This document shows positions 3,068 to 37,541 of a stretch of DNA of 64,000 nt, in pieces. The notes under the pieces are model-generated. The model ran no database searches, had not been told where the DNA came from, and worked only from the letters and a program-made list of their open reading frames with translations. A program made the position numbers and the translations under genes. This DNA comes from Candidatus Macondimonas diazotrophica (GTDB taxonomy: Bacteria > Pseudomonadota > Gammaproteobacteria > UBA5335): contig NZ_SRIO01000004.1 of assembly GCF_004684205.1 (NCBI RefSeq), forward strand, positions 62,001 to 126,000. The letters are read 5' to 3'. The stretch's first letter is position 1. Each line of letters begins with the position of its first letter.

Positions 3068-3875
3068 CCGTATTCGAACCGCCTTGTGGGTGGTCCCGCC
3101 GATTGTCGCTGCGGTTCTGTTGCTGCCCAATCCATGGGTGGCGGTGTTGTTCGCGGCCATCGTCTGGGGCGCCGGACAGGAGTGGACGGCCTTGATGGGC
3201 TTGCCGCACGACGGCGGCAGAGCGGCAGGAGTCGTCCTGCTCCCTCTCATGGCGGCAACCTATGTTTGGGGTGATCTGGATGCCGTTGGGGTGCTGCTTG
3301 GTGTGGCGCTGTTCTGGTGGGTTCTGGCGACCATCTGGGTCGTCTGTTTCCCGGTGGGTTTGCCGGGTGGCGCCTCGCTGCGGGGCCGCAAGCTGCTCGT
3401 CGGGTTGCTGCTGTTGCTGCCGGCGTGGCTGGCGCTGATCACGCTACACGGTTCCGCCGAAGGACCCCGTTGGGTCCTTTTGTTACTGGTCATGATCTGG
3501 CTTGCCGATGCCGGCGCCTATTATGCCGGACGCCGCTTCGGCCGGCGCAAACTGGCGCCGCAGGTCAGCCCGGGCAAAACCTGGGCGGGCTTCTGGGGGG
3601 GCTTGGCGGCCGGTCTCGCTGCTGGATTGCTCGGTCCGCTGTTGCTGCGGCTGGAAATGCCAGCGCTGGGCGCGTACGCCCTGACTTGCCTGGTGACTGT
3701 TGCCGGGTCCGTGGTAGGCGACCTCACGGTCAGCATGTTCAAGCGCCAGATGGGCGTCAAGGATACCGGCCATCTCTTGCCCGGCCATGGCGGGATTCTG
3801 GACCGTATCGACAGTCTGACCGCTGCAGCACCGATTTTCACCTGGGGTCTGGGGCGGGCACAGGGATGGCTGTGA
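3057..3875 (+). CDS. cdsA: Phosphatidate cytidylyltransferase (CDP-diglyceride synthase)
   Basis: Integral inner-membrane enzyme that makes CDP-diacylglycerol from phosphatidic acid and CTP, the precursor of all phospholipid head groups. The 272-residue product is very hydrophobic with about seven or eight predicted membrane spans. It ends with the family signature (SPGKTWAG, then [18 protein letters not shown] and [11 protein letters not shown]). The ATG at 3057 lies inside the end of uppS, and the stop overlaps the first 10 bp of dxr. The short linked overlaps place it firmly in the uppS-cdsA-dxr-rseP operon. Confidence 0.95.
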
Positions 3876-5050
3876 CGGGACTGTGCATTCTGGGCGCGAC
3901 GGGGAGCGTGGGGTGCAGCACGTTGGATGTGGTGGCTCGCCACCCCGACCGGTTTCGGGTGGTGGCGCTGACCGCGCAGCGGCAAGTGGAACGGTTGCTG
4001 GCGCAATGTCGCCAGTTCGATCCCATGGTGGCGGTGGTTGGAGATGCGACCGCGGCGCGGTGGCTGCAGCAGGAGCTGGCCGCTGGTGGGATCAAAACAG
4101 CGGTCTTGCATGGCCCGGATGGGCTGACTCAGGCCGCGGCCCTGCCCGAGGTGAGCACGGTGATGGCCGCCATCGTCGGGGGTGCCGGCTTGATGCCGAC
4201 GCTGAGTGCAGTGCGCGCCGGCAAGACCGTATTGCTCGCCAACAAGGAATCGTTGGTCATGGGCGGCAGCCTCTTCATGGATGAAGTGCGGCGCTACGGC
4301 GCGCGCCTCATTCCGATCGACAGCGAGCACAATGCCATTTTTCAATGCCTGCCGCAGGATTCCTCGGTTGGCCTCGATCCGGATGGCGTGCGTCGCGTGC
4401 TCCTGACGGCGTCGGGTGGTCCATTTCGGCAGCTTGCGGCAGAGGCGCTGGCGCATGTCACGCCCGAGGCGGCTTGCGCACATCCCAACTGGGTGATGGG
4501 ACGCAAGATCTCGGTCGATTCGGCGACCTTGATGAACAAGGGGTTGGAGGTGATCGAGGCGCACTGGCTGTTCGGTCTGCCGGCCGAGCGGATCGAGGTC
4601 GTGGTGCACCCGCAGAGTGTGGTGCATTCGCTGGTGGAATATGTCGACGGTTCCGTTTTGGCACAGCTGGGGCATCCGGACATGCGCACTCCCATTGCAC
4701 ACGCGCTGGGATGGCCTGAACGCATCGACATCGGTCTGCCGATGTTGGATCTGATCCAGATCGGTCAGTTGACCTTTGAGGCGCCCGATCAAGGCCGTTT
4801 CCCGGCGTTGAGGCTGGCCTATGAGGCGCTGACCGCGGGTGGGGGTGCGCCTGTTGTGCTCAATGCGGCCAACGAAATCGCCGTCGCGGCGTTTCTGGAC
4901 GACCGGCTGCCGTTTCCGGGAATCGCTGCGCTGATCGAGCGGGCGTTGCAGGTCCTCGGCAGCACACCGGCGGCGTGCTGGGATGCGGTGATAGAATTGG
5001 ATGATCGCACCCGCGCAGCTTGCGCCGTATGGCTGGGGAACGGAACATGA
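3866..5050 (+). CDS. dxr: 1-deoxy-D-xylulose 5-phosphate reductoisomerase
   Basis: Second enzyme of the non-mevalonate (MEP) isoprenoid pathway: NADPH-dependent rearrangement and reduction of DXP to MEP. The 394-residue protein starts with the NADPH-binding loop [14 protein letters not shown] and contains [22 protein letters not shown] and the [13 protein letters not shown] active-site region. The frame stays open back to 3317 inside cdsA, but the ATG at 3866 is chosen because the family begins just before the GATGS loop. The stop TGA overlaps the rseP ATG (ATGA), so the genes are coupled. Confidence 0.96.
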
Positions 5051-6411
5051 GTCAGGTGATGTCGTCCTTGCTGGCATTCATCGTCGCGCTGGCGTTGCTC
5101 ATCGCGATCCACGAATGGGGGCACTTCTGGGTGGCGCGGCGCTTGGGGGTCAAGGTGCTGCGCTTCAGTATCGGCTTCGGCCGGCCTCTCTGGCGGCGTA
5201 TCGGTCGGGACGGGACCGAGTATCGGGTGGCGATGATTCCCTTGGGTGGATACGTCAAGATGCTCGACGAGCGGGAAGGGCCTGTCGTTCCGAGCGAACG
5301 ACAGCACGCGTTCAACCGTCAATCGGTCAGCGTTCGTGCCGCCATCGTGTCGGCCGGACCGATCGCGAACCTTCTGCTTGCCATCGCCCTGTACTGGCTG
5401 GTGCTGTGCCTGGGTGTGCCGGGCATGCGCTCGCTGATCGATACGCCGGCGCCGAACACCCCTGCGGCTGTTGCGGGCCTCGAGGGCGGTGATGAGATCT
5501 TGCGGGTCAACGACGCGTCGACGCCGACTTGGGAACAGTTGGGGCTGCGTGTGGTTCAGGCGGCACTGGATGATGTTCCGCTGGAGTTGCAGGTGCGGCG
5601 AGCCGACGGCGCCGAGCAGACACTGATCCTCGACGCGGATTGGTCGAACGCACTCGATGAGCCGGCGCGAATCAATCAGGATCTGGGGCTGGCGCCTTAC
5701 CAGCCGCCTTTGCCCGCGCAGTTGGGCGCACTGCAGTCCGATGGGCCGGCGGCTTCGGCCGGACTGGCGCCGGGTGATCGCATCCTCGCCATGGATGGGC
5801 GGCCTGTGGCGGACTGGGCAGATTGGGTCAATCAGGTCAGGGCGCGTCCGAACGAGGCCGTGGAGATCGAGATTTCCAGTGGCGACGAGACACGGCGCCT
5901 CACCCTGCGCATCGGTTCGCGGCAGCAGGACGGGATTCGCATCGGTTATGTGGGCGCCAGCCCTCACGTTCCCCAACAGTTGCAAGAGAGCCTGCGTGCC
6001 GAGTACCGTTATGCGCCGATAGCGGCATTGCCCGTGGCCGTTCAACGCACCTGGCAGATGAGTGTGATGACGGTTCGGATGCTGGCACGCATGGCGACGG
6101 GGCAGCTGGGGCTCGATAATCTCAGCGGTCCCATCAACATTGCCCAGTATGCAGGGTATTCTGCCCAGATCGGCTTGGTGTCCTATCTTGGATTCCTTGC
6201 GGTGATCAGCATCAGTCTGGGGGTGCTCAATCTGCTGCCCATTCCGATTCTGGATGGGGGGCACTTGGCTTTCTATCTGATGGAAGGAATACGGGGCAAG
6301 CCGCTTTCCGAACGCGTTCAGCACTGGGGGCAGCAGATCGGGATCATTGCCCTGGTGCTCATGATGGGGCTGGCTTTCTACAACGATTTGGTCCGACTTT
6401 TCGCGCCGTGA
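5047..6411 (+). CDS. rseP: Site-2 intramembrane protease RseP
   Basis: Zinc metalloprotease of the inner membrane that cleaves RseA in the sigma-E envelope-stress cascade and clears signal peptides. The 454-residue product has HEWGH at residues 22-26 in the first membrane span, two PDZ-like regions in the middle and the second zinc/catalytic motif [13 protein letters not shown], with Asp at about 403, in a late span. An in-frame upstream ATG at 5032 is less likely than the ATG at 5047, which overlaps the dxr stop. It stands immediately before bamA, the main outer-membrane assembly gene, as in related bacteria. Confidence 0.95.
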
Positions 6412-6457
6412 GCTGCAGGTGGATGCAGGTTCCGGCTCAGCAAACATCAAGGTTTTT

Positions 6458-8749
6458 ATGAACAAGAAAACATGGTCTCGCCTGGTAGGGATGGTACTGT
6501 TGCTGAGTCTGGGATCGGCTTGGGCGTTTGACGCCTTCGTGGTCCAGGATATCCGGGTGCAGGGACTGGAGCGGCACGATGTGTCGCGCGTCTATCGCGC
6601 CATCAATCTCAATGTTGGCGATCAGGTCGATGAACGTCGCGTCCAGCAGATGACGCGCGACCTGTTCAAGACCGGCTATTTCAGCGATGTCGGGTTTTCG
6701 CGGGAAGGCGATGCGATTGTCATCCGGGTCGTGGAGCGTCCGAGCATCGCGCGCTTTACCGTGACCGGAAACAAGGAGATTCCCTCCGACCAGCTGTTGA
6801 AGGGCTTGCGCGATGTCGGGCTGACCGAGGGGCGGGCTTTCGACCGATCCGTGCTGGAGCAGGTCGAGCAAGAGTTGCGTCGGCAGTACTTTGCCAATGG
6901 TCGCTATGCCGTCAAGATCGAAACCGATATCAAGGAAGAAACCGACAACCGGGTTGCCGTCGCCATCACGATCGATGAGGGGGACGTGGCCTCCATCCGC
7001 CGCATCAACATCGTCGGCAACGAGGCATTCAGTGACGAAGAGCTGCTACAGCCGCTGCGCTCGCGCAGCAAGAGCTGGTGGCGCCTGTTCGGCAGCCGGG
7101 ACCGTTATTCCCAGCAGGTTTTCTCGGGCGATCTCGAGACTCTGACCTCGTTTTACCAGGATCGTGGCTATTTGAACTTTCGGGTTGAATCGACGCAGGT
7201 ATCTCTGTCTCCGGACAAGGAAAGCATCTATCTCACCATCAACGTCTATGAAGGACCGAAATACAACGTCAGCGAAGTCGCGCTGCTGGGCGAACTGGTG
7301 GTGCCCGAATCCCAATTGCGCTCGCTGATCACGATTCGACCGGGAAGCACGTTCTCGCGCCAGGAAGCCACGGAGACGGCCAAGAAGATCTCCGAGCGAC
7401 TTGGCGATGAGGGGTATGCCTTCGCCCAGGTCGAGCCGATGACGGACATCGATGAGGCCAATCGGCAGGTCAAGATCAATCTCCTGGTCAAGCCGGGAAA
7501 TCGGTACTACGTGCGCAATGTCAATTTCCGAGGCAACGTCACGACCCAGGACCAGGCATTGCGGCGTGAAATGCGTCAGTACGAGGGCGCATCCTTCGCG
7601 GCCAGCGAAGTCACCCGCTCGCGGGTTCGGCTGGCGCGCTTGCCGTTCATCGAGCAGGCTGACGTTCAGGTGCGGCCCGTGCCAGGCGAAAGCAATCTCG
7701 TCGATGTCGACTATGAGGTCACCGAGCGCAGTGCCGGCGCATTCCAGGTCGGCGTGGGTTATTCCAGTGGCCAGGGCGTGCTGGTCAATGCGAATGTCTC
7801 CCACAGCAACTGGTTCGGAACCGGTAATCGCGTGAGCCTGGATTTCGTGACCAGCGAGTTCAGCCGCAACTACAGCGCTTCGCTGACCCAGCCTTTTTAT
7901 ACGCTCGATGGCGTGAGCCGTACGATCTCGCTGTTCCAGCGCACCACCGATTCCTTGACGCGGGTCAGCTCGCGGTTCGACACGGATACATGGGGTGGCT
8001 CGCTACGCTACGGAATTCCCATCACCGAATACGACAGCATTCGTCTGGGTGGCAGCTTCCGATCCACGCAGTTGACGGTGCTCGAGGGCAGTACCCCCCA
8101 GCAGATCATCGATTTCGTGGACCAGAACGGCGATTCGTTCAATGCCCTGACCTTCGATACGGGCTGGGTCCGCGACACCCGCAATCGCACCGTCTTTGCA
8201 GACAAGGGCTATATTCATCGGCTGTTTGCGGACATCTCTATTCCCGTGGCCGATCTGGAGTACTACAAGCTGACCTATGATTATGAGCAGTATTTCCCCA
8301 TCAATCGCCACCTGATCGGCACGGCGCGGCTCGGTGTGGGCTATGCCGACAGCTACGGCGACACCACGGACCTGCCGCCTTACGAAAAATTCTTCGCCGG
8401 CGGCATCAATTCAGTTCGTGGTTACCAGGGAAGCTCCTTGGGCACACGGGACGAGTACAACAACCCATTGGGTGGCAACTTCCGCACCATTACTCAGCTC
8501 GAGATGTTGTTCCCAACCTTGCTCGGAGAAAGTCGCAATACGCGTTTCAGCCTGTTCGTGGATGCCGGTAATGTGTTCGACACCTATGATGACTTCGATG
8601 CAGGCGAGCTGCGTGCATCCACCGGTGTTGGCTTCCAGTGGTTGACACCGATCCTCGGTCTGCTGGAGTTCGCCATTGCCTATCCGCTGAACGACGAATC
8701 GGGGGACGATACCGAGGTGTTCAGCTTCACCTTCGGAGCCACGTTCTGA
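6458..8749 (+). CDS. bamA: Outer membrane protein assembly factor BamA
   Basis: Central component of the BAM complex that folds beta-barrel proteins into the outer membrane. The 763-residue product has a signal peptide ending near SAWA (residue 23), then five POTRA domains over roughly residues 25-425, and a C-terminal 16-strand barrel with the SVRGYQGSSLG motif. It ends in Phe (FTFGATF), the outer-membrane insertion signature. The frame is open from 6419, but the ATG at 6458 gives a proper basic n-region (MNKKTWSR). skp follows directly. Confidence 0.97.
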   Translation: MNKKTWSRLVGMVLLLSLGSAWAFDAFVVQDIRVQGLERHDVSRVYRAINLNVGDQVDERRVQQMTRDLFKTGYFSDVGFSREGDAIVIRVVERPSIARFTVTGNKEIPSDQLLKGLRDVGLTEGRAFDRSVLEQVEQELRRQYFANGRYAVKIETDIKEETDNRVAVAITIDEGDVASIRRINIVGNEAFSDEELLQPLRSRSKSWWRLFGSRDRYSQQVFSGDLETLTSFYQDRGYLNFRVESTQVSLSPDKESIYLTINVYEGPKYNVSEVALLGELVVPESQLRSLITIRPGSTFSRQEATETAKKISERLGDEGYAFAQVEPMTDIDEANRQVKINLLVKPGNRYYVRNVNFRGNVTTQDQALRREMRQYEGASFAASEVTRSRVRLARLPFIEQADVQVRPVPGESNLVDVDYEVTERSAGAFQVGVGYSSGQGVLVNANVSHSNWFGTGNRVSLDFVTSEFSRNYSASLTQPFYTLDGVSRTISLFQRTTDSLTRVSSRFDTDTWGGSLRYGIPITEYDSIRLGGSFRSTQLTVLEGSTPQQIIDFVDQNGDSFNALTFDTGWVRDTRNRTVFADKGYIHRLFADISIPVADLEYYKLTYDYEQYFPINRHLIGTARLGVGYADSYGDTTDLPPYEKFFAGGINSVRGYQGSSLGTRDEYNNPLGGNFRTITQLEMLFPTLLGESRNTRFSLFVDAGNVFDTYDDFDAGELRASTGVGFQWLTPILGLLEFAIAYPLNDESGDDTEVFSFTFGATF

Positions 8750-30833: not shown

Positions 30834-32216
30834 TCAGCGGCTGTTGAGCGCATTCATGTTGGCAATCTGCTGGGTGAGAAAACTGCTGGTGCTCTGAAGC
30901 TGGCCGACAAGCTTGTCCAAGGCCGTGAACTGGGCGAGGTAGCGGTTCTGCAGATTTTCCATGCGTTGATCCAGTCGCTCCCGGTCCTGGGTCAATCCGC
31001 GGATGGCGTCCTGCAAACTGCGGGTGCGGGCATCGACCACACCGCTGGTGCCGCCATAGCCGGTGACGACCGGCTCCAGCCGATCGAGCAGGCCGCCATC
31101 GCCGGTCAATAGGGCTGACACGGCCGTAGGGTCGTTCTTGAGTACCTCATCGAGCCGAGATGCTTTCAGCGTGAGATTCCCCGCCTTGTCGCTCGTGATG
31201 CCAATGGCGCTCAATACGCGCAGGTCATTCGTGGTGTCGCTCAAGGGGGTGCTGAGTTCGCGGCGGAGTGTCGCGCCCAGGGCGCGTGCCGCGGAGTCTC
31301 CCAGGAGCGGGCCGGCGGACTTGGACTCGGGGTCATAGCGGCTGAGGTTGCCGAGGGTGCTGATCAATGCATTGTAGGTTTCGATAAATTTCTTGATGGC
31401 GTCCTTCGCCCCGGTCGAGTCCAGCGCCAATTGCATATCGGCCGGGTTGCCGGGATTGGCAGCGAGCAGCTCCAGATCCACGCCGTCCACCACATCCTCG
31501 ATGCGGTTGGTCGGACTGCTGCGCAAGACGCCGTCAATCCGAATCTGCGCATTGTGCGCCGGGCTTTGCTCGGTGTAATTGCCGGTCACGGCATTGAGCG
31601 GGTCATGGACCAGGCTTGCCAGTCCGCCATTGCCCCCACTTGTGGTGATGGTGATGGCTTGATCGCTGCCCGTCTTGCCTTGGGTGAGAATCAGGTGTTG
31701 GCCATCGTCGCCGTCGACCACTCGGGCCACGATGCCCGGGTTGCCAGTGGCCGCGTTGATGCGATCCCGGATGGCGCTCAGTGTCTGGCCGTTCTCATCG
31801 ATTGCCACCTCGAATGAAGTTCCACCCGCGGTAATCGCCAGTGTTCCGGTGCCGATCGCGGTATTCGCTGCGAAAGCACCTGAGAGCAATTTGTGGGCGC
31901 TTGCCATCTGCACGACTTCAATGCGGTATTCGCCGGCGCTTGCGTCGCTCGAGGCCGTGGCCGTAAACAATTCCGGTTGTGAAATCGTGGCCTTGATCTG
32001 ACCGAACAACCCGGAGCCGCTCAAGGCAGTCAGGCTGTCGCGCAAGGCGACCAAGGCCCCTTTCAGTGCGCCGAATGCCGACAAGCGTGTCTGCAGTTGC
32101 GTCTCGCGCTGATCCAGGCGCAATTGCGCAGGCTGTTGTTCGGCCTGTACCAAGCCTTGCACCAAGGCGTTGACATCCAGTCCCGAACCGAGACCCGGAG
32201 AGCTGATGGATGCCAT
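30834..32216 (-). CDS. fliD: Flagellar filament cap FliD (HAP2)
   Basis: Pentameric cap that folds flagellin at the growing filament tip. The 460-residue product starts ISSPGLGSGLDVNALVQGLV, the family's N-terminal signature, with a coiled coil after it (QRETQLQTRLSAFGALKGAL). It contains a flagellin-IN type module (IRDRINAATGNPGIVARVVD) and ends with the C-terminal coiled coil (RMENLQNRYLAQFTALDKLV). It lies on the minus strand downstream of fliC, while its usual companion fliS is on the other strand. Confidence 0.94.
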   Translation of the reverse strand: MASISSPGLGSGLDVNALVQGLVQAEQQPAQLRLDQRETQLQTRLSAFGALKGALVALRDSLTALSGSGLFGQIKATISQPELFTATASSDASAGEYRIEVVQMASAHKLLSGAFAANTAIGTGTLAITAGGTSFEVAIDENGQTLSAIRDRINAATGNPGIVARVVDGDDGQHLILTQGKTGSDQAITITTSGGNGGLASLVHDPLNAVTGNYTEQSPAHNAQIRIDGVLRSSPTNRIEDVVDGVDLELLAANPGNPADMQLALDSTGAKDAIKKFIETYNALISTLGNLSRYDPESKSAGPLLGDSAARALGATLRRELSTPLSDTTNDLRVLSAIGITSDKAGNLTLKASRLDEVLKNDPTAVSALLTGDGGLLDRLEPVVTGYGGTSGVVDARTRSLQDAIRGLTQDRERLDQRMENLQNRYLAQFTALDKLVGQLQSTSSFLTQQIANMNALNSR

Positions 32217-32357: not shown

Positions 32358-33830
32358 TTATCGCAGCAACGAGAGCACCGTCTGGGGCACCTGGTTGGCC
32401 TGGGCCAGGATCGCCGTGCCCGCCTGCTGCAGGATCTGGGCTTTGGTCAGATTGGCGGTTTCGGCCGCGAAATCAGCGTCCAAGATCCGCGAGCGGGACG
32501 CACTGACATTTTCAGAAGTGGTCTGGGCATTGGAAATGGCTGTGCTGAAGCGGTTCTGCACCGCGCCCAGGCCGGCGCGCAGGTCGGCCACGAACGCCAA
32601 AGCGCCGTCGACCACCGCCAGCGCATCACTGGCGCCCGTCTGGGTGCCGACCGACAGGCTGGCCACCGAAGACAGCGAGCTGGCTACCGTACTCGCGTTC
32701 AGTACGGTGCTGGTGCCATCGTCGCTGGTCAGGGTGTAGTTACTGGCGGCGTTGAACGATACCTTGCCGCCCACCACCAGGCTGTCGGTGGCGGCTGCGG
32801 TGCCACCCGTGGGGCCGGTCAGGCTGACGCCTTCGACATCCAGGGTTTCCCCGGCATCGCCGGAGTGGACGAAGTTTTCCACGCCGATGTCATAGCCTTC
32901 CGCGCTGATCAGCTTGATGGAGGCCTTGTCGGAGGACAGTTCGGCGGTAATGCCAGTGGTGGCCGCCTTGCTGTTGATGGCCTCGGACAGCGCTGACAGG
33001 TCGGAGGTGCTGATTACGTTGGCCGAAATCGTCTCGCCGGTGCCGTTCGCGCCATAGAGATCGAAGGTCACGGTGCCGGCCGCGCTGAGGCTATCGATGG
33101 TCGCCTCGGTGCGCGCGGTGGCGGTCACGCCAGTGGTGGCGCTTTGGGCATTGACGAGCGCGGCCACATCGCGCGCCGTGGCATCAGCGCCCACGGTGAC
33201 GGCGGCCGTGCCGGTGGTGCCGGAAATGGTCAGCGACTGGGAAGCCACGTTGTTTCCGCCGGTGACGTCGGCCGCGGCCGTCAGCGCGCCGCCCACATTC
33301 GTGTTGGAGCTGGCCTGATTCGCGCCGATATCGGTGGCCTTGGAGCTACCGATGCCGAAGCTGATGGTCTGTCCCTGGTAGGCACCAACCTGGAATACCG
33401 CATTGGAAAAGCTGCCGTCGAGCAGGGTCTTGCCGTTGAACGAGGTCTGGGTGGCAATGCGGGTAATTTCCTGCTGGAGCTGGGCCACTTCCTTCTGCAG
33501 CGAGGCGCGGTCGGTGGCCGAGTTGGTGTCATTGGCCGACTGGACGGCCAGCTCGCGGATGCGTTGCAGCGCGTTGGTGACTTCCCCGAGGGCGCCTTCG
33601 GCAGTCTGAGCGACCGAAATCCCGTCATTGGCATTGCGTGCCGCCTGATTCAGCCCGCGGATCTGTGCGGTCATGCGGTCGGAAATAGCGAGGCCGGCCG
33701 CATCATCCTTGGCGCTGTTGATGCGGAGGCCCGAGGACAGACGCTGCATGGCGGTTTGCAGCATGCCTTGCGAGGAACCGAGATTGCGCTGGGTGTTCAG
33801 CGACATCACGTTGGTGTTGATCACAGCCAT
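32358..33830 (-). CDS. fliC: Flagellin FliC
   Basis: Filament subunit. The 490-residue product has the conserved D0/D1 ends: [20 protein letters not shown], then [20 protein letters not shown] at the N-terminus, and a C-terminal part with [20 protein letters not shown] and [20 protein letters not shown]. The variable centre (about residues 180-390) is Ala/Thr/Ser-rich and contains two flagellin-IN type modules ([40 protein letters not shown]). No cysteine is visible. AGGAG is 6 bp before the ATG. A sigma-28-like promoter lies about 90 bp upstream. Confidence 0.97.
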
Positions 33831-33977: not shown

Positions 33978-34004
33978 TCAAGAACGCGCTATGACGGTCG
34001 CTAA
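33978..34004 (+). promoter_or_regulatory. Sigma-28-like promoter of fliS
   Basis: TCAAGAAC (33978-33985) is followed after exactly 11 bp by GTCGCTAA (33997-34004), which has six of eight matches to the sigma-28 -10 element GCCGATAA at ideal spacing. It would start transcription about 30 nt before the fliS ATG. Together with the minus-strand element it would make the fliC-fliS interval a divergent late-gene promoter region. Confidence 0.4.
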
Positions 34005-34042
34005 AAATCCTGTCGCGAAAACCGGACGTGAGAGGGCTGAAC

Positions 34043-34477
34043 ATGGGGCACGAAGAGGCACTGCGCGCCTATCGCCAAGTGGACACGCTGCGGGCGTTGG
34101 AATCGGCATCGCCCCATCGCTTGGTGCTGATGCTGATGGATGGCGCCGAACGGGCCATTGCCTGTGCGCGGGGACATCTGATGCGGGGCGAGCCAGGACC
34201 CAAGGGGGTTCAGATCGGTCGTGCCATCACCTTGATCGAAGGCCTGCGCAGCGGCCTCGACCATGCTCAGGGTGGCGAAATCGCAGGCAACCTCGATGCG
34301 CTTTATCTCTATCTCCAGCAGCGCCTGCTGTTGGCGAATCTGGATGGCCGGGTGGATCTGCTCGATGAAGTGACGGTCTTGCTCCGGCAAATCCGATCGG
34401 CTTGGGAGGCCATTGATCCACAGATACAGCCCGGTGCAACGGCTACGCGGGCCGAGTCTGCGCCGGCGATCCCATGA
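34043..34477 (+). CDS. fliS: Flagellin export chaperone FliS
   Basis: Cytosolic chaperone that binds the flagellin C-terminus and prevents premature polymerisation. The 144-residue helical product has the typical start (ALRAYRQVDTLRALESASPH), RLVLMLMDGAERAIACARGH and, later, LDALYLYLQQRLLLANLDGR. The ATG at 34043 is preferred over the GTG at 34028, since AGAGGG lies 6 bp upstream. It is divergent from its client fliC, and its stop overlaps the next gene by 4 bp. Confidence 0.92.
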   Translation: MGHEEALRAYRQVDTLRALESASPHRLVLMLMDGAERAIACARGHLMRGEPGPKGVQIGRAITLIEGLRSGLDHAQGGEIAGNLDALYLYLQQRLLLANLDGRVDLLDEVTVLLRQIRSAWEAIDPQIQPGATATRAESAPAIP

Positions 34478-34851
34478 GCCCTCCGATGGGAGAGGTGGTT
34501 TCTCTACTGCAGCCCGAGCGGCAGCGCACGCTGGACGAACTGGACACGTTGAGCCAGTCGATGTTGGCGTCCGCGCTGGCCGGCGACTGGGACATCGTGG
34601 CTGCCGCGCAGCCTGAGTTCGAGACAGGGCTGCGTCGACTCTGTGCCGGTCAGTCGACCGCGGCCGAAGCTTTTGTGTTGATGCAAGCCCTGAGGCGTCT
34701 GCAAGAGCGGATATCCCATCTGGAGGATCTCGCGCATTCCCAGCATGCCGAACTGTCGCTGCATCTTCGGCGCATGCATCGTCATCAAGGTGCGGTGCGC
34801 ATCTACCAGACGGCCGCCGGTTCCGGCCACGGTCACGGCGGACATGGCTGA
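34474..34851 (+). CDS. FliT-like flagellar export chaperone with His/Gly-rich tail
   Basis: A 125-residue, mostly helical protein in the place where fliT or its equivalent normally follows fliS. It has helices such as LQPERQRTLDELDTLSQSML and LMQALRRLQERISHLEDLAH, and is probably a chaperone for FliD or a related export substrate. The assignment rests on position, length and helical pattern, because FliT sequences diverge strongly. The C-terminus GSGHGHGGHG is unusual and could bind metal. It is coupled to fliS (ATGA) and overlaps the next gene by 1 bp. Confidence 0.6.
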   Translation: MSPPMGEVVSLLQPERQRTLDELDTLSQSMLASALAGDWDIVAAAQPEFETGLRRLCAGQSTAAEAFVLMQALRRLQERISHLEDLAHSQHAELSLHLRRMHRHQGAVRIYQTAAGSGHGHGGHG

Positions 34852-35396
34852 TGGAGCGTGCCGGACTGTCGCCAGGAGAGGTTCGCGCACTCATCGCGTA
34901 TGACTGGCAGCGGTCGGCTGCTCCGGATCCAGCGCGCTTGGCCGCGGATGGTCGGGAGGCAGCCCGCCTGATGGCGCTCACGCTTGCGTTCGAAGAGATC
35001 TTCAGCACGGGCGGCTCAGGGGAATTTTCCGGCGAGCTGGCGCTGTTGGCTGCACGGATCGATTGGTTGACCCAGTGGGTGCTGGCCGATCGCACCGAGG
35101 AAACGGACTGGCGTCATGAATTGCGGCCGATCGTGCTGACCCAGGCTGCCGCTGAATGGCAGGAGCCTGGCACCTGCGCGCCGGGGCAGTGGGGCGTGCT
35201 GCGGTTCTATCCCGAGCCCCGTTTGTCCCGATCGCTCGCGTTCTGGGTCGAGGTCGAACGGGTGAGCCCGGAGCCGGACGGCTGTCGCATTCACGCGCAA
35301 TGGCGTGGCCACAATGAAGAAACCCAGGAGTTGCTCGGGAAGTTGCTGTTTCGCCTGCACAGACAGGAAGTGGCACGTGCGCGTCAACAGATCTAG
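34851..35396 (+). CDS. PilZ-like protein of the flagellar cluster
   Basis: A 181-residue protein with a helical N-terminal part (about 1-80) and a C-terminal beta-rich part that looks like a PilZ domain. RHELR at residues 88-92 fits the RxxxR c-di-GMP contact, followed by PGQWGVLRFYPEPRLSRSLA, FWVEVERVSPEPDGCRIHAQ and a closing helix (LLGKLLFRLHRQEVARARQQ). The second motif, [DN]xSxxG, is not seen (TQAAAEW instead), so c-di-GMP binding is uncertain. A role in flagellar control is inferred from position only: it is the third gene of the fliS unit and ends just before the fliE promoter. Confidence 0.55.
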   Translation: MERAGLSPGEVRALIAYDWQRSAAPDPARLAADGREAARLMALTLAFEEIFSTGGSGEFSGELALLAARIDWLTQWVLADRTEETDWRHELRPIVLTQAAAEWQEPGTCAPGQWGVLRFYPEPRLSRSLAFWVEVERVSPEPDGCRIHAQWRGHNEETQELLGKLLFRLHRQEVARARQQI

Positions 35397-35411: not shown

Positions 35412-35428
35412 TTGGCCCGAAACATGCT
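35412..35428 (+). promoter_or_regulatory. Sigma-54 promoter of fliE operon
   Basis: TTGGCCCGAAACATGCT has GG (35414-35415) and GC (35426-35427) 10 bp apart, the RpoN spacing. The -24 block matches the consensus except C for A, and the -12 block reads ATGC instead of TTGC. It shares the TGGCCCGA core with the flgB and fliL elements. The expected transcript start is about 30 nt before the fliE ATG, which has GGAGGA at good spacing. Confidence 0.68.
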
Positions 35429-35468: not shown

Positions 35469-35789
35469 ATGCAGGACATCGGTGGAATCAGCGCTGTGGG
35501 CGTCGATGCGCTCCAGCAGGGCGGGCAAAGCCGCAGCCGCCCATCCCATGCCGAAACCGGTTCGGATGAGTCGTTTGCCGCGTTGCTCAAACAAGGCATC
35601 GACAATGTCAACGCCCAGCAGCAACAGGCGGCAGCGCTGGCGAGCGGATTCGAGGCAGGGCAGGACGGCGTGGATCTGGCAGAGGTCATGATCGCATCGC
35701 AGAAGGCCGGACTGGCATTTCGGGCATTGACGCAGATTCGCAATCAGGTGGTCAGCGCTTATCAGGACGTGATGCGCATGACGATCTGA
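35469..35789 (+). CDS. fliE: Flagellar hook-basal body protein FliE
   Basis: Adapter between the MS ring and the proximal rod. The 106-residue product (E. coli 104) has SFAALLKQGIDNVNAQQQQA in the middle and the conserved C-terminal half (DLAEVMIASQKAGLAFRALT, QIRNQVVSAYQDVMRM). The start follows a strong GGAGGA site. It opens the fliEFGHIJK unit, with fliF 18 bp downstream. Confidence 0.95.
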   Translation: MQDIGGISAVGVDALQQGGQSRSRPSHAETGSDESFAALLKQGIDNVNAQQQQAAALASGFEAGQDGVDLAEVMIASQKAGLAFRALTQIRNQVVSAYQDVMRMTI

Positions 35790-35807: not shown

Positions 35808-37541
35808 ATGGACATCGCTGAAAAAAAATCGCCAGATCGTTTGGCGGACTGGACTTCCTGGCGGGAACGCCTGGCGGCCTTGCCGAGTATGCCGGGCGCT
35901 CAGGTACTTGGTCCGGCCGCCGCGCTGGCGTTGCTCGCCGCCGTGTTGATTGCTGCCGCCCTCTGGATGCAGCAACCGGCTTATCGGGTGCTGTACAACG
36001 GCCTGTCCGACAAGGAATCCGGGCAGATCGTCGAGGTTCTGCAGGCACAGAAGATCCCCTTCCGAATCAACGATACCAGTGGAGCCATCGAAGTTCCGGG
36101 CAATCAGGTCCACGCGGCGCGGCTGAAGCTGGCGACGCAGGGTTTGCCGCAGGGCGCCGGCGTGGGCTTGGAGATGTTGACGCAGCCGCAGGGTCTGGGC
36201 GTCTCCCAGTTCATGGAAAACGCACGCTACCAGCACGCGCTGGAGGTGGAGCTGGCGCGCAGCATCGCCAGTCTGCAACCGGTGCAGGAGGCGCGGGTGC
36301 ATCTGGCGTTGCCGAAGGCGTCGGCCTTCGTGCGCGATCAGAAAAAGCCGAGCGCATCGGTCATCGTCCAGTTGTATCCCGGTCGCAGCCTCGAGGCCGG
36401 TCAAGTTGCGGCAATGGTGCATCTGGTTGCAGCGAGCATTCCCGGCATGGATTCCGGTCAGGTCATGGTGGTGGATCAGCGCGGCAATCTTTTGACGCGT
36501 GAGCAGGATGATGCCAAAGGTCCGTTGGGACTGAGCGACGATCAGTTCGCCTACGCACGGCGGCTGGAGCGTGAGTATGTGTACCGAATCGAATCGCTGC
36601 TGATGCCCATCGTCGGGCCGGGGCGGGTCCATGCACAGGTCAGCGCCGATGTCGATTTCACCGTCGTCGAACAGACTCAGGAGCGTTTCGATCCGGCCAG
36701 TCAGGTCCTGCGCAGCGAACAGATGAGCGAGGAACGTCGCACACCCGGCGCGCTACCGGGCGGGATCCCAGGCGCGCTCAGTAATCAGCCTCCCGGTCCT
36801 GTGGCCTTGGCGCAGCGCACCGCTTCCGTTGCGGGGCCGGAGGCTGGCCGCAGCGATGGTGCCGAAAGCGAGCGTGACCCGGCTTCGGCACCGCAGGATG
36901 TCAGTCTGCAGAGTACCCGCAACTACGAGATCGACAAGACGGTCAGTCGCATCAGTCAACCGGTGGGGACAGTGCGCCGCTTGTCCATTGCGGTTCTGGT
37001 CGACGATTGGGAAAGCACGGGGGAGAACGGGGCGGTCAACAAAACGCCGCTCTCGGAGACCGAAATCGCGCAGCTGACCGCGCTGGTGAAGGAATCCGTG
37101 GGATTCAGCGCGGTACGCGGCGACAGCATCAACGTGGTGAACCAGTCGTTTCGCGGCATAGGGCTCGATGACGGCGGCGCCGACGTGCCCTGGTGGCAGC
37201 AGCCCGGGTTCATGGAATTGGTCAGCAAGGGTTTTGGCATGCTGATCATTGTTCTGGTGCTGTTGATGATCGTTCGACCGCTGCTTCGGCGCTTGCGGAA
37301 TTCGACGCCCCAGCGGGTGCAGCTGATGGCGCCACCGGCCTTGACCGAGAACACCGGTCGGGCGGATTTGACAGAAGATCGCTTGAGCCTCTCGAACCTG
37401 CCTTCCGCCAGGACGGGTGAGGCATCGGCGAACGCTTTGCCGCCTTATGAGAATCGGCTGGAAGCAGCCCGTCTTCTGGCTGCGCGCAACCCGCGGCAGA
37501 CCGCCGAAGTCGTGAGAGCGTGGATGGGTGGCGATGATTGA
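35808..37541 (+). CDS. fliF: Flagellar MS-ring protein FliF
   Basis: Inner-membrane MS ring on which the rotor and export gate are built. The 577-residue product has a first membrane span (AAALALLAAVLIAAALWM), the ring-building domains (VLYNGLSDKESGQIVEVLQA, ARVHLALPKASAFVRDQKKP), a second span near the end (GMLIIVLVLLMIVRPLL) and the cytoplasmic C-terminal tail that binds FliG (AARNPRQTAEVVRAWMG). The stop overlaps fliG, so the two partners are coupled. Confidence 0.97.
   Translation: MDIAEKKSPDRLADWTSWRERLAALPSMPGAQVLGPAAALALLAAVLIAAALWMQQPAYRVLYNGLSDKESGQIVEVLQAQKIPFRINDTSGAIEVPGNQVHAARLKLATQGLPQGAGVGLEMLTQPQGLGVSQFMENARYQHALEVELARSIASLQPVQEARVHLALPKASAFVRDQKKPSASVIVQLYPGRSLEAGQVAAMVHLVAASIPGMDSGQVMVVDQRGNLLTREQDDAKGPLGLSDDQFAYARRLEREYVYRIESLLMPIVGPGRVHAQVSADVDFTVVEQTQERFDPASQVLRSEQMSEERRTPGALPGGIPGALSNQPPGPVALAQRTASVAGPEAGRSDGAESERDPASAPQDVSLQSTRNYEIDKTVSRISQPVGTVRRLSIAVLVDDWESTGENGAVNKTPLSETEIAQLTALVKESVGFSAVRGDSINVVNQSFRGIGLDDGGADVPWWQQPGFMELVSKGFGMLIIVLVLLMIVRPLLRRLRNSTPQRVQLMAPPALTENTGRADLTEDRLSLSNLPSARTGEASANALPPYENRLEAARLLAARNPRQTAEVVRAWMGGDD

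Follow-up and report, generated by a model that had tools for sequence, protein, structure and literature searches.

An atypical PilZ protein at the end of a fliS operon

The stretch of Candidatus Macondimonas diazotrophica DNA analyzed here (the window, 64,000 nucleotides of contig NZ_SRIO01000004.1) carries an intact open reading frame (ORF) at 34851-35396 on the + strand that encodes a 181-amino-acid protein of the tPilZ family. The protein is almost certainly a divergent member of this atypical family, of the XCC6012/FlgZ type, and not a canonical PilZ protein, and its gene is almost certainly the last of a FliS/FliT operon. There is no recognizable binding site for cyclic diguanosine monophosphate (c-di-GMP) in the protein, as both motifs are missing. 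We lean toward the view that it acts as an oligomeric cytoplasmic adaptor, aiding flagellar assembly or motility by protein contacts and not by c-di-GMP binding.

Among Pfam families, PF16823 (tPilZ) is the sole match at E values up to 10, scoring 27.7 bits (cut-off 25; 27.9 bits in the genome search). An NCBIfam search with the protein gave no match. A preliminary description of the window had called the product PilZ-like and suggested both a profile search and a fold prediction. The profile for canonical PilZ domains (PF07238) does not match the protein at E values up to 10 and finds only three other places in the genome; the tPilZ profile matched instead. The PilZN domain (PF07317) is likewise found neither in the protein, which consists of tPilZ alone, nor anywhere in the genome. 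By sequence, the only relative in the Protein Data Bank is XCC6012 of Xanthomonas campestris (3ph1/3rqa, E 0.0024).

The predicted fold bears out the PilZ relationship. An AlphaFold model based on the window protein together with 16 relatives has a mean predicted local distance difference test (pLDDT) score of 81, with low confidence over residues 51-90 (block means of 53-64), which cover helix α3 and most of the linker. A strand at residues 11-22 is followed by helices at 27-52 and 60-80, strands at 91-152 and a helix at 156-180, and this order of strand, two helices, five strands and helix is the tPilZ topology, in which two long helices are inserted between β1 and β2 (residues 91-96) of the PilZ barrel. 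When the model was searched with Foldseek, 3ph1 and 3rqa ranked first (E 2×10−9), followed by canonical PilZ domains (E 1.5×10−3 and weaker). Structural alignment with VIA-align gave a Z score of 17.4 over 162 residues to 3ph1_A, whereas no canonical PilZ domain exceeded 9.4 (over 107 residues). The gene and the segments of its product are as follows.

34851-35396, +: tPilZ-family protein (FlgZ/XCC6012-like), 181 amino acids; PF16823, 3ph1 and model scores as above
34881-34916, +: β1 of the model (residues 11-22), directly preceded by LSPGE in the canonical RxxxR slot; from the model and structural alignment ranges
34929-35090, +: tPilZ-specific helical insert, α2 (27-52) and α3 (60-80); from the model, the alignment and the heptad positions of XCC6012 (PMC3131395)
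35112-35126, +: RHELR (residues 88-92) in the α3-β2 linker, off the canonical RxxxR position; from the model, alignments and shuffles
35133-35150, +: aligned slot of [DN]xSxxG, here VLTQAA (residues 95-100); from the alignment of 85 tPilZ loci
35316-35390, +: C-terminal helix α4 (156-180) with the family-invariant FxxHR (167-171); from the model and the same alignment

To compare the protein with its family, we used an alignment of 85 tPilZ loci, comprising that of the window, 83 further places from a search of 369 genomes of the class Gammaproteobacteria, and one locus of a congener. FRLHR at residues 167-171 is the C-terminal FxxHR of tPilZ proteins, and F167, H170 and R171 in this last helix are each kept in all 85 loci. 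The accessible portions of PMC3131395 describe XCC6012 (the same protein as XC2249) as a tetramer in which heptads of α3 build a coiled coil, with the K77D change giving dimers. In the window protein, five of the six a/d positions of the α3 heptads are hydrophobic, and the equivalent of K77 is R69. Across the family, lysine or arginine occupies this position in 85/85 loci and the six a/d positions are hydrophobic in 76-85 of the 85. By analogy, the window protein may also form a tetramer through α3.

The motifs for c-di-GMP binding are missing

The preliminary description had credited the protein with half of a c-di-GMP site, on the basis of RHELR. The letters are indeed there at residues 88-92, and [DN]xSxxG is indeed absent from the 181 amino acids, but the idea of a half site is rejected, because RHELR lies in the wrong structural position, occurs at chance frequency and is poorly conserved in the family. 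In the model it follows both inserted helices and adjoins β2, some 80 residues away from the canonical slot before β1. Canonical PilZ domains carry RxxxR before or at the start of the first strand. In the VIA-align comparisons, the PilZ domains of Escherichia coli YcgR (starting at residues 112-113) and VCA0042 (starting at residue 136) come into register with the model at its residues 4-6. These start positions, where the motif arginines of the two proteins lie, place the canonical RxxxR slot of the window protein at about residues 6-10 (LSPGE), where there is no arginine. With 20 arginines in 181 residues, the protein contains two RxxxR strings, against a mean of 2.06 in 10,000 shuffled sequences, and at least one is present in 90% of shuffles.

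Conservation within the family gives the same picture. Arginine is present at column 88 in 7/83 loci and at column 92 in 18/85, and at both in only three of the 85 (the window, the congener and one other). At the aligned slot of the second motif, aspartate or asparagine is found in none of the 85 loci; SxxG occurs in 17, and seven carry [DN]xSxxG at some other position. Given this complete lack of D/N at the slot, the label "c-di-GMP receptor" in the Pfam description of PF16823 is questionable and does not fit the sequences compared. In XCC6012, the accessible text of PMC3131395 reports only a partial SxxG and no reliable c-di-GMP binding by isothermal titration calorimetry.

Operon structure and neighboring genes

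The genes around the tPilZ gene, and two putative promoters, are listed below.

30834-32216, −: fliD (PF07195/PF02465)
32358-33830, −: flagellin gene, divergent from fliS (PF00669/PF00700)
33978-34004, +: possible σ28 promoter of fliS (TCAAG-N14-GTCGCTAA), weak; 3 mismatches, with 11 matches in the window against 4.95 expected
34028-34477, +: fliS (PF02561, 110 bits, cut-off 26.7), overlapping fliT by 4 bases (ATGA)
34474-34851, +: fliT-like gene (PF05400, 28.1 bits, just below the cut-off of 29.5), overlapping the tPilZ gene by 1 base (TGATG)
35412-35428, +: possible σ54 promoter of fliE (TTGGCCCGAAACATGCT), weak; 2 mismatches, with 3 matches in the window against 3.36 expected by chance
35469-35789, +: fliE (PF02049, 97 bits)
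35808-37541, +: fliF (PF01514, 223 bits)

The fliS, fliT-like and tPilZ genes are tightly packed in this order on a single strand, with the tPilZ start codon lying within the stop of the fliT-like gene. The gene belongs to the fliS unit, after a fliT-like gene and before fliE, as had been described and as the profile matches confirm. Beyond fliE comes fliF, and flagellin and fliD lie upstream on the opposite strand. Identity to the tPilZ gene of a same-genus genome (G003; G, C and L numbers are our labels for genomes, contigs and loci) is 0.75, 0.78 and 0.48 at the three codon positions, which indicates that the reading frame is under purifying constraint. The putative promoters are statistically weak, although their positions fit: the number of σ54-like matches is not above chance for the whole window, and that of σ28-like matches is weakly above it.

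This arrangement is of the Xanthomonas type. In X. oryzae, according to the available part of PMC5550985, fliS, fliTX and flgZ (PXO_06169, a "non-canonical PilZ") are co-transcribed under RpoN2/FleQ and FliA, and the distance between fliTX and flgZ is −1 bp, so that both gene order and junction are shared with the window. The surroundings differ: in X. oryzae fliS is preceded by fliD, and flgZ is followed by a response regulator gene and rpoN2, whereas the window has divergent fliC and fliD, and fliE after the tPilZ gene. With XCC6012 the window protein shares the fold, the α2/α3 insert, the single-domain size, the C-terminal FxxHR helix, the flagellar neighborhood and the lack of complete c-di-GMP motifs. 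It is only about 16% identical in structural alignment, however, and lacks even the partial SxxG; moreover, signal-transduction genes and not fliE follow the XCC6012 gene.

Distribution and setting of tPilZ genes

At an E value of 0.001 or lower, PF16823 has matches in 83 of the 369 class genomes, and in 79 of these the score is above the cut-off; counts of FliS, PF07317 and PilT are taken to refer to the same draw. A phylum-wide draw gave matches in 15/398 genomes, 11 of which are in the same class. The wider group including Xanthomonas, suspected in the preliminary description, is thus real. FliS is present in 79/83 tPilZ genomes, compared with 186/369 overall, and the four without a match are G016, which is 75% complete, and three members of one family (G074, G205 and G308). 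A scan of the genome contigs with the window protein as a single query found no relative.

Neighbors of the tPilZ genes were chosen by ORF length and position. Upstream sequence falls short of 2 kb at eight of the 85 loci; among the 77 with at least 2 kb, FliS lies within 1.2 kb upstream in 62, and 53 have a same-strand FliT within 400 bp. Downstream genes, scanned at 65 of the 85 loci, include 58 σ54 activators (47 with a FleQ domain), σ54 itself four times and FliF once. In total, fliS/fliT or a σ54 activator, mostly FleQ, stands beside tPilZ in 82/85 loci, the exceptions being L058, L072 and L126. A conserved flagellar neighborhood, by which the original suggestion was to be judged, is therefore present. 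We found no description of this family-wide linkage in a literature search by title or abstract; most subscription journals lay outside that search, so we make no claim that the linkage is unpublished.

Several individual loci are unusual. In the family of G074, G205 and G308 (L102, L106 and L087), tPilZ occurs with a σ54 activator, no FliS was detected in the three genomes, and the two longer loci contain two flagellin-like genes. At L067 and L073 a large ORF directly upstream of tPilZ takes the place of fliT. The ORF of L067 matches tetratricopeptide repeats and glycosyltransferase family 41, and that of L073 has equal length; the matches suggest that at L067 a gene for flagellin modification could have been inserted to separate fliST from tPilZ. 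Genome G186 has two tPilZ genes (L083 and L121), one in the fliS-fliT setting and the other elsewhere. Weak tPilZ matches in the small genomes G512, G564, G600 and G627 fall outside the class but within the phylum.

Possible functions

Because the motifs are missing, the gene shares an operon with filament chaperones, and the usual neighbor in the family is a flagellar master activator, protein contact within the flagellar programme appears to be the most likely mode of action. The preliminary description had read the missing motif in a similar way, as a hint of a protein-protein role. We envisage that the PilZ barrel, interrupted after β1 by two long helices, would oligomerize as XCC6012 does, and that its contacts would probably be with either the FliS/FliT chaperone step or a FleQ-type regulator. 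Such contacts could help flagellar assembly or motility without any c-di-GMP binding by the protein itself. The tetramer, the adaptor role and the identity of the client are inferred, and several observations weigh against this reading. In the third heptad of the window protein, Asp80 takes the d position, the α2-α3 turn and α3 are modelled at low confidence, and a pairwise alignment with XCC6012 shifts α3 by one turn relative to the multiple alignments. The accessible portions of the literature show no contact with FliS, FliT or FleQ, and fleQ is not beside the tPilZ gene in the window genome or its congener.

Another possibility is that the protein is a partner of a FleQ/FlrA-type activator and tunes flagellar transcription. 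The frequency of FleQ-domain activators downstream of tPilZ speaks for such a partnership, as do 19 loci that retain an activator within 600 bp although no fliS/fliT was found upstream (at seven of these, the available upstream sequence is shorter than 2 kb). Conversely, 18 loci, with the window and its congener among them, keep fliS/fliT but have no activator within 600 bp, and adjoining genes need not interact. Since fleQ is not adjacent in the window genome or its congener, a FleQ partner is less supported there, and we regard it as unlikely. A role outside the flagellum has been proposed for XC_2249, which the review PMC3749722, in its accessible portions, ties to pilus-dependent motility as a cytoplasmic adaptor that links the PilT/PilU motors to proteins of the diguanylate cyclase type, citing yeast two-hybrid, far-Western and Förster resonance energy transfer data. 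This account, in which XC_2249 is also able to bind c-di-GMP, pulls against both the flagellar setting and the calorimetry on XCC6012. The window genome does encode a PilT homologue (512 bits, cut-off 319), but PilT is above the cut-off in 309/369 genomes and is too common to discriminate, while tPilZ is almost always beside flagellar genes or σ54 activators and accompanied by FliS. A main role as a type IV pilus adaptor is a rival reading, though a very unlikely one here.

The preliminary description had also offered a brake or an assembly regulator as the natural role, and it is the brake that lacks support. A c-di-GMP receptor that slows the flagellar motor might bind through RHELR and non-standard residues at the second site; the PilZ fold of the model, the RQMPR of the congener at the position of RHELR and the Pfam description of PF16823 could all be read in this way, and the accessible text of PMC3749722 states that XC_2249 can bind c-di-GMP, with binding not required. 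Against these stand the misplacement, chance frequency and poor conservation of RHELR, the lack of D/N at the second slot, and the negative calorimetry on XCC6012. Furthermore, the available part of the review PMC6637768 reports that XC2249 promotes motility, its loss lowering it, and the window genome has a better candidate, a PilZ protein that carries DLSLGG and is encoded next to fliA and fleQ. A brake role for the window protein is unlikely, and in the form that depends on RHELR we consider it very unlikely.

The DLSLGG protein belongs to locus L148 (G000:C1:80000-92000; ORFs 6007-7461, 4961-5794 and 3837-4556, −), where a FleQ-type activator, FliA and this PilZ protein stand together on another contig (C1), apart from the main flagellar cluster. 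It has a weak match to YcgR and no PilZN domain.

YcgR and the FlgZ of Pseudomonas, a YcgR-type protein for which the same name is in use, are canonical flagellar brakes that share the PilZ barrel and flagellar setting with the window protein. According to the accessible text of PMC11800159, the architecture of YcgR combines both motifs with a PilZN domain at the N terminus, whereas the window protein lacks domain and motifs alike. We also considered whether tPilZ replaces the YcgR N-domain and rejected this, as the two co-occur somewhat above expectation: the N-domain is also present in 53/79 FliS-containing tPilZ genomes, versus 51/107 (p 0.011, in a Fisher test that ignores phylogeny). PilZ barrels that do not bind c-di-GMP are also known from the XC1028/XAC1133 type (3dsg), which acts via protein contacts as far as the available part of PMC3131395 describes it. 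That type has a type IV pilus partner, however, and aligns to our model with a Z score of only 5.2 over 84 residues.

The window protein is itself ordinary for its family. In 2011, the accessible text of PMC3131395 described XCC6012 as an orphan of xanthomonads; tPilZ is now seen in 83 of the 369 gammaproteobacterial genomes sampled, almost always with flagellar genes. This raises the question of what job a motif-less PilZ protein performs beside FliS, FliT and FleQ. One tentative and rather doubtful answer is that tPilZ might be a widely conserved, c-di-GMP-independent component of flagellar late-assembly control in gammaproteobacteria of the FleQ type, its oligomer coupling the state of the FliS/FliT export chaperones to a FleQ-type regulator. 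If this is true, the PilZ fold would have been converted from a nucleotide sensor into a scaffold for an assembly checkpoint.
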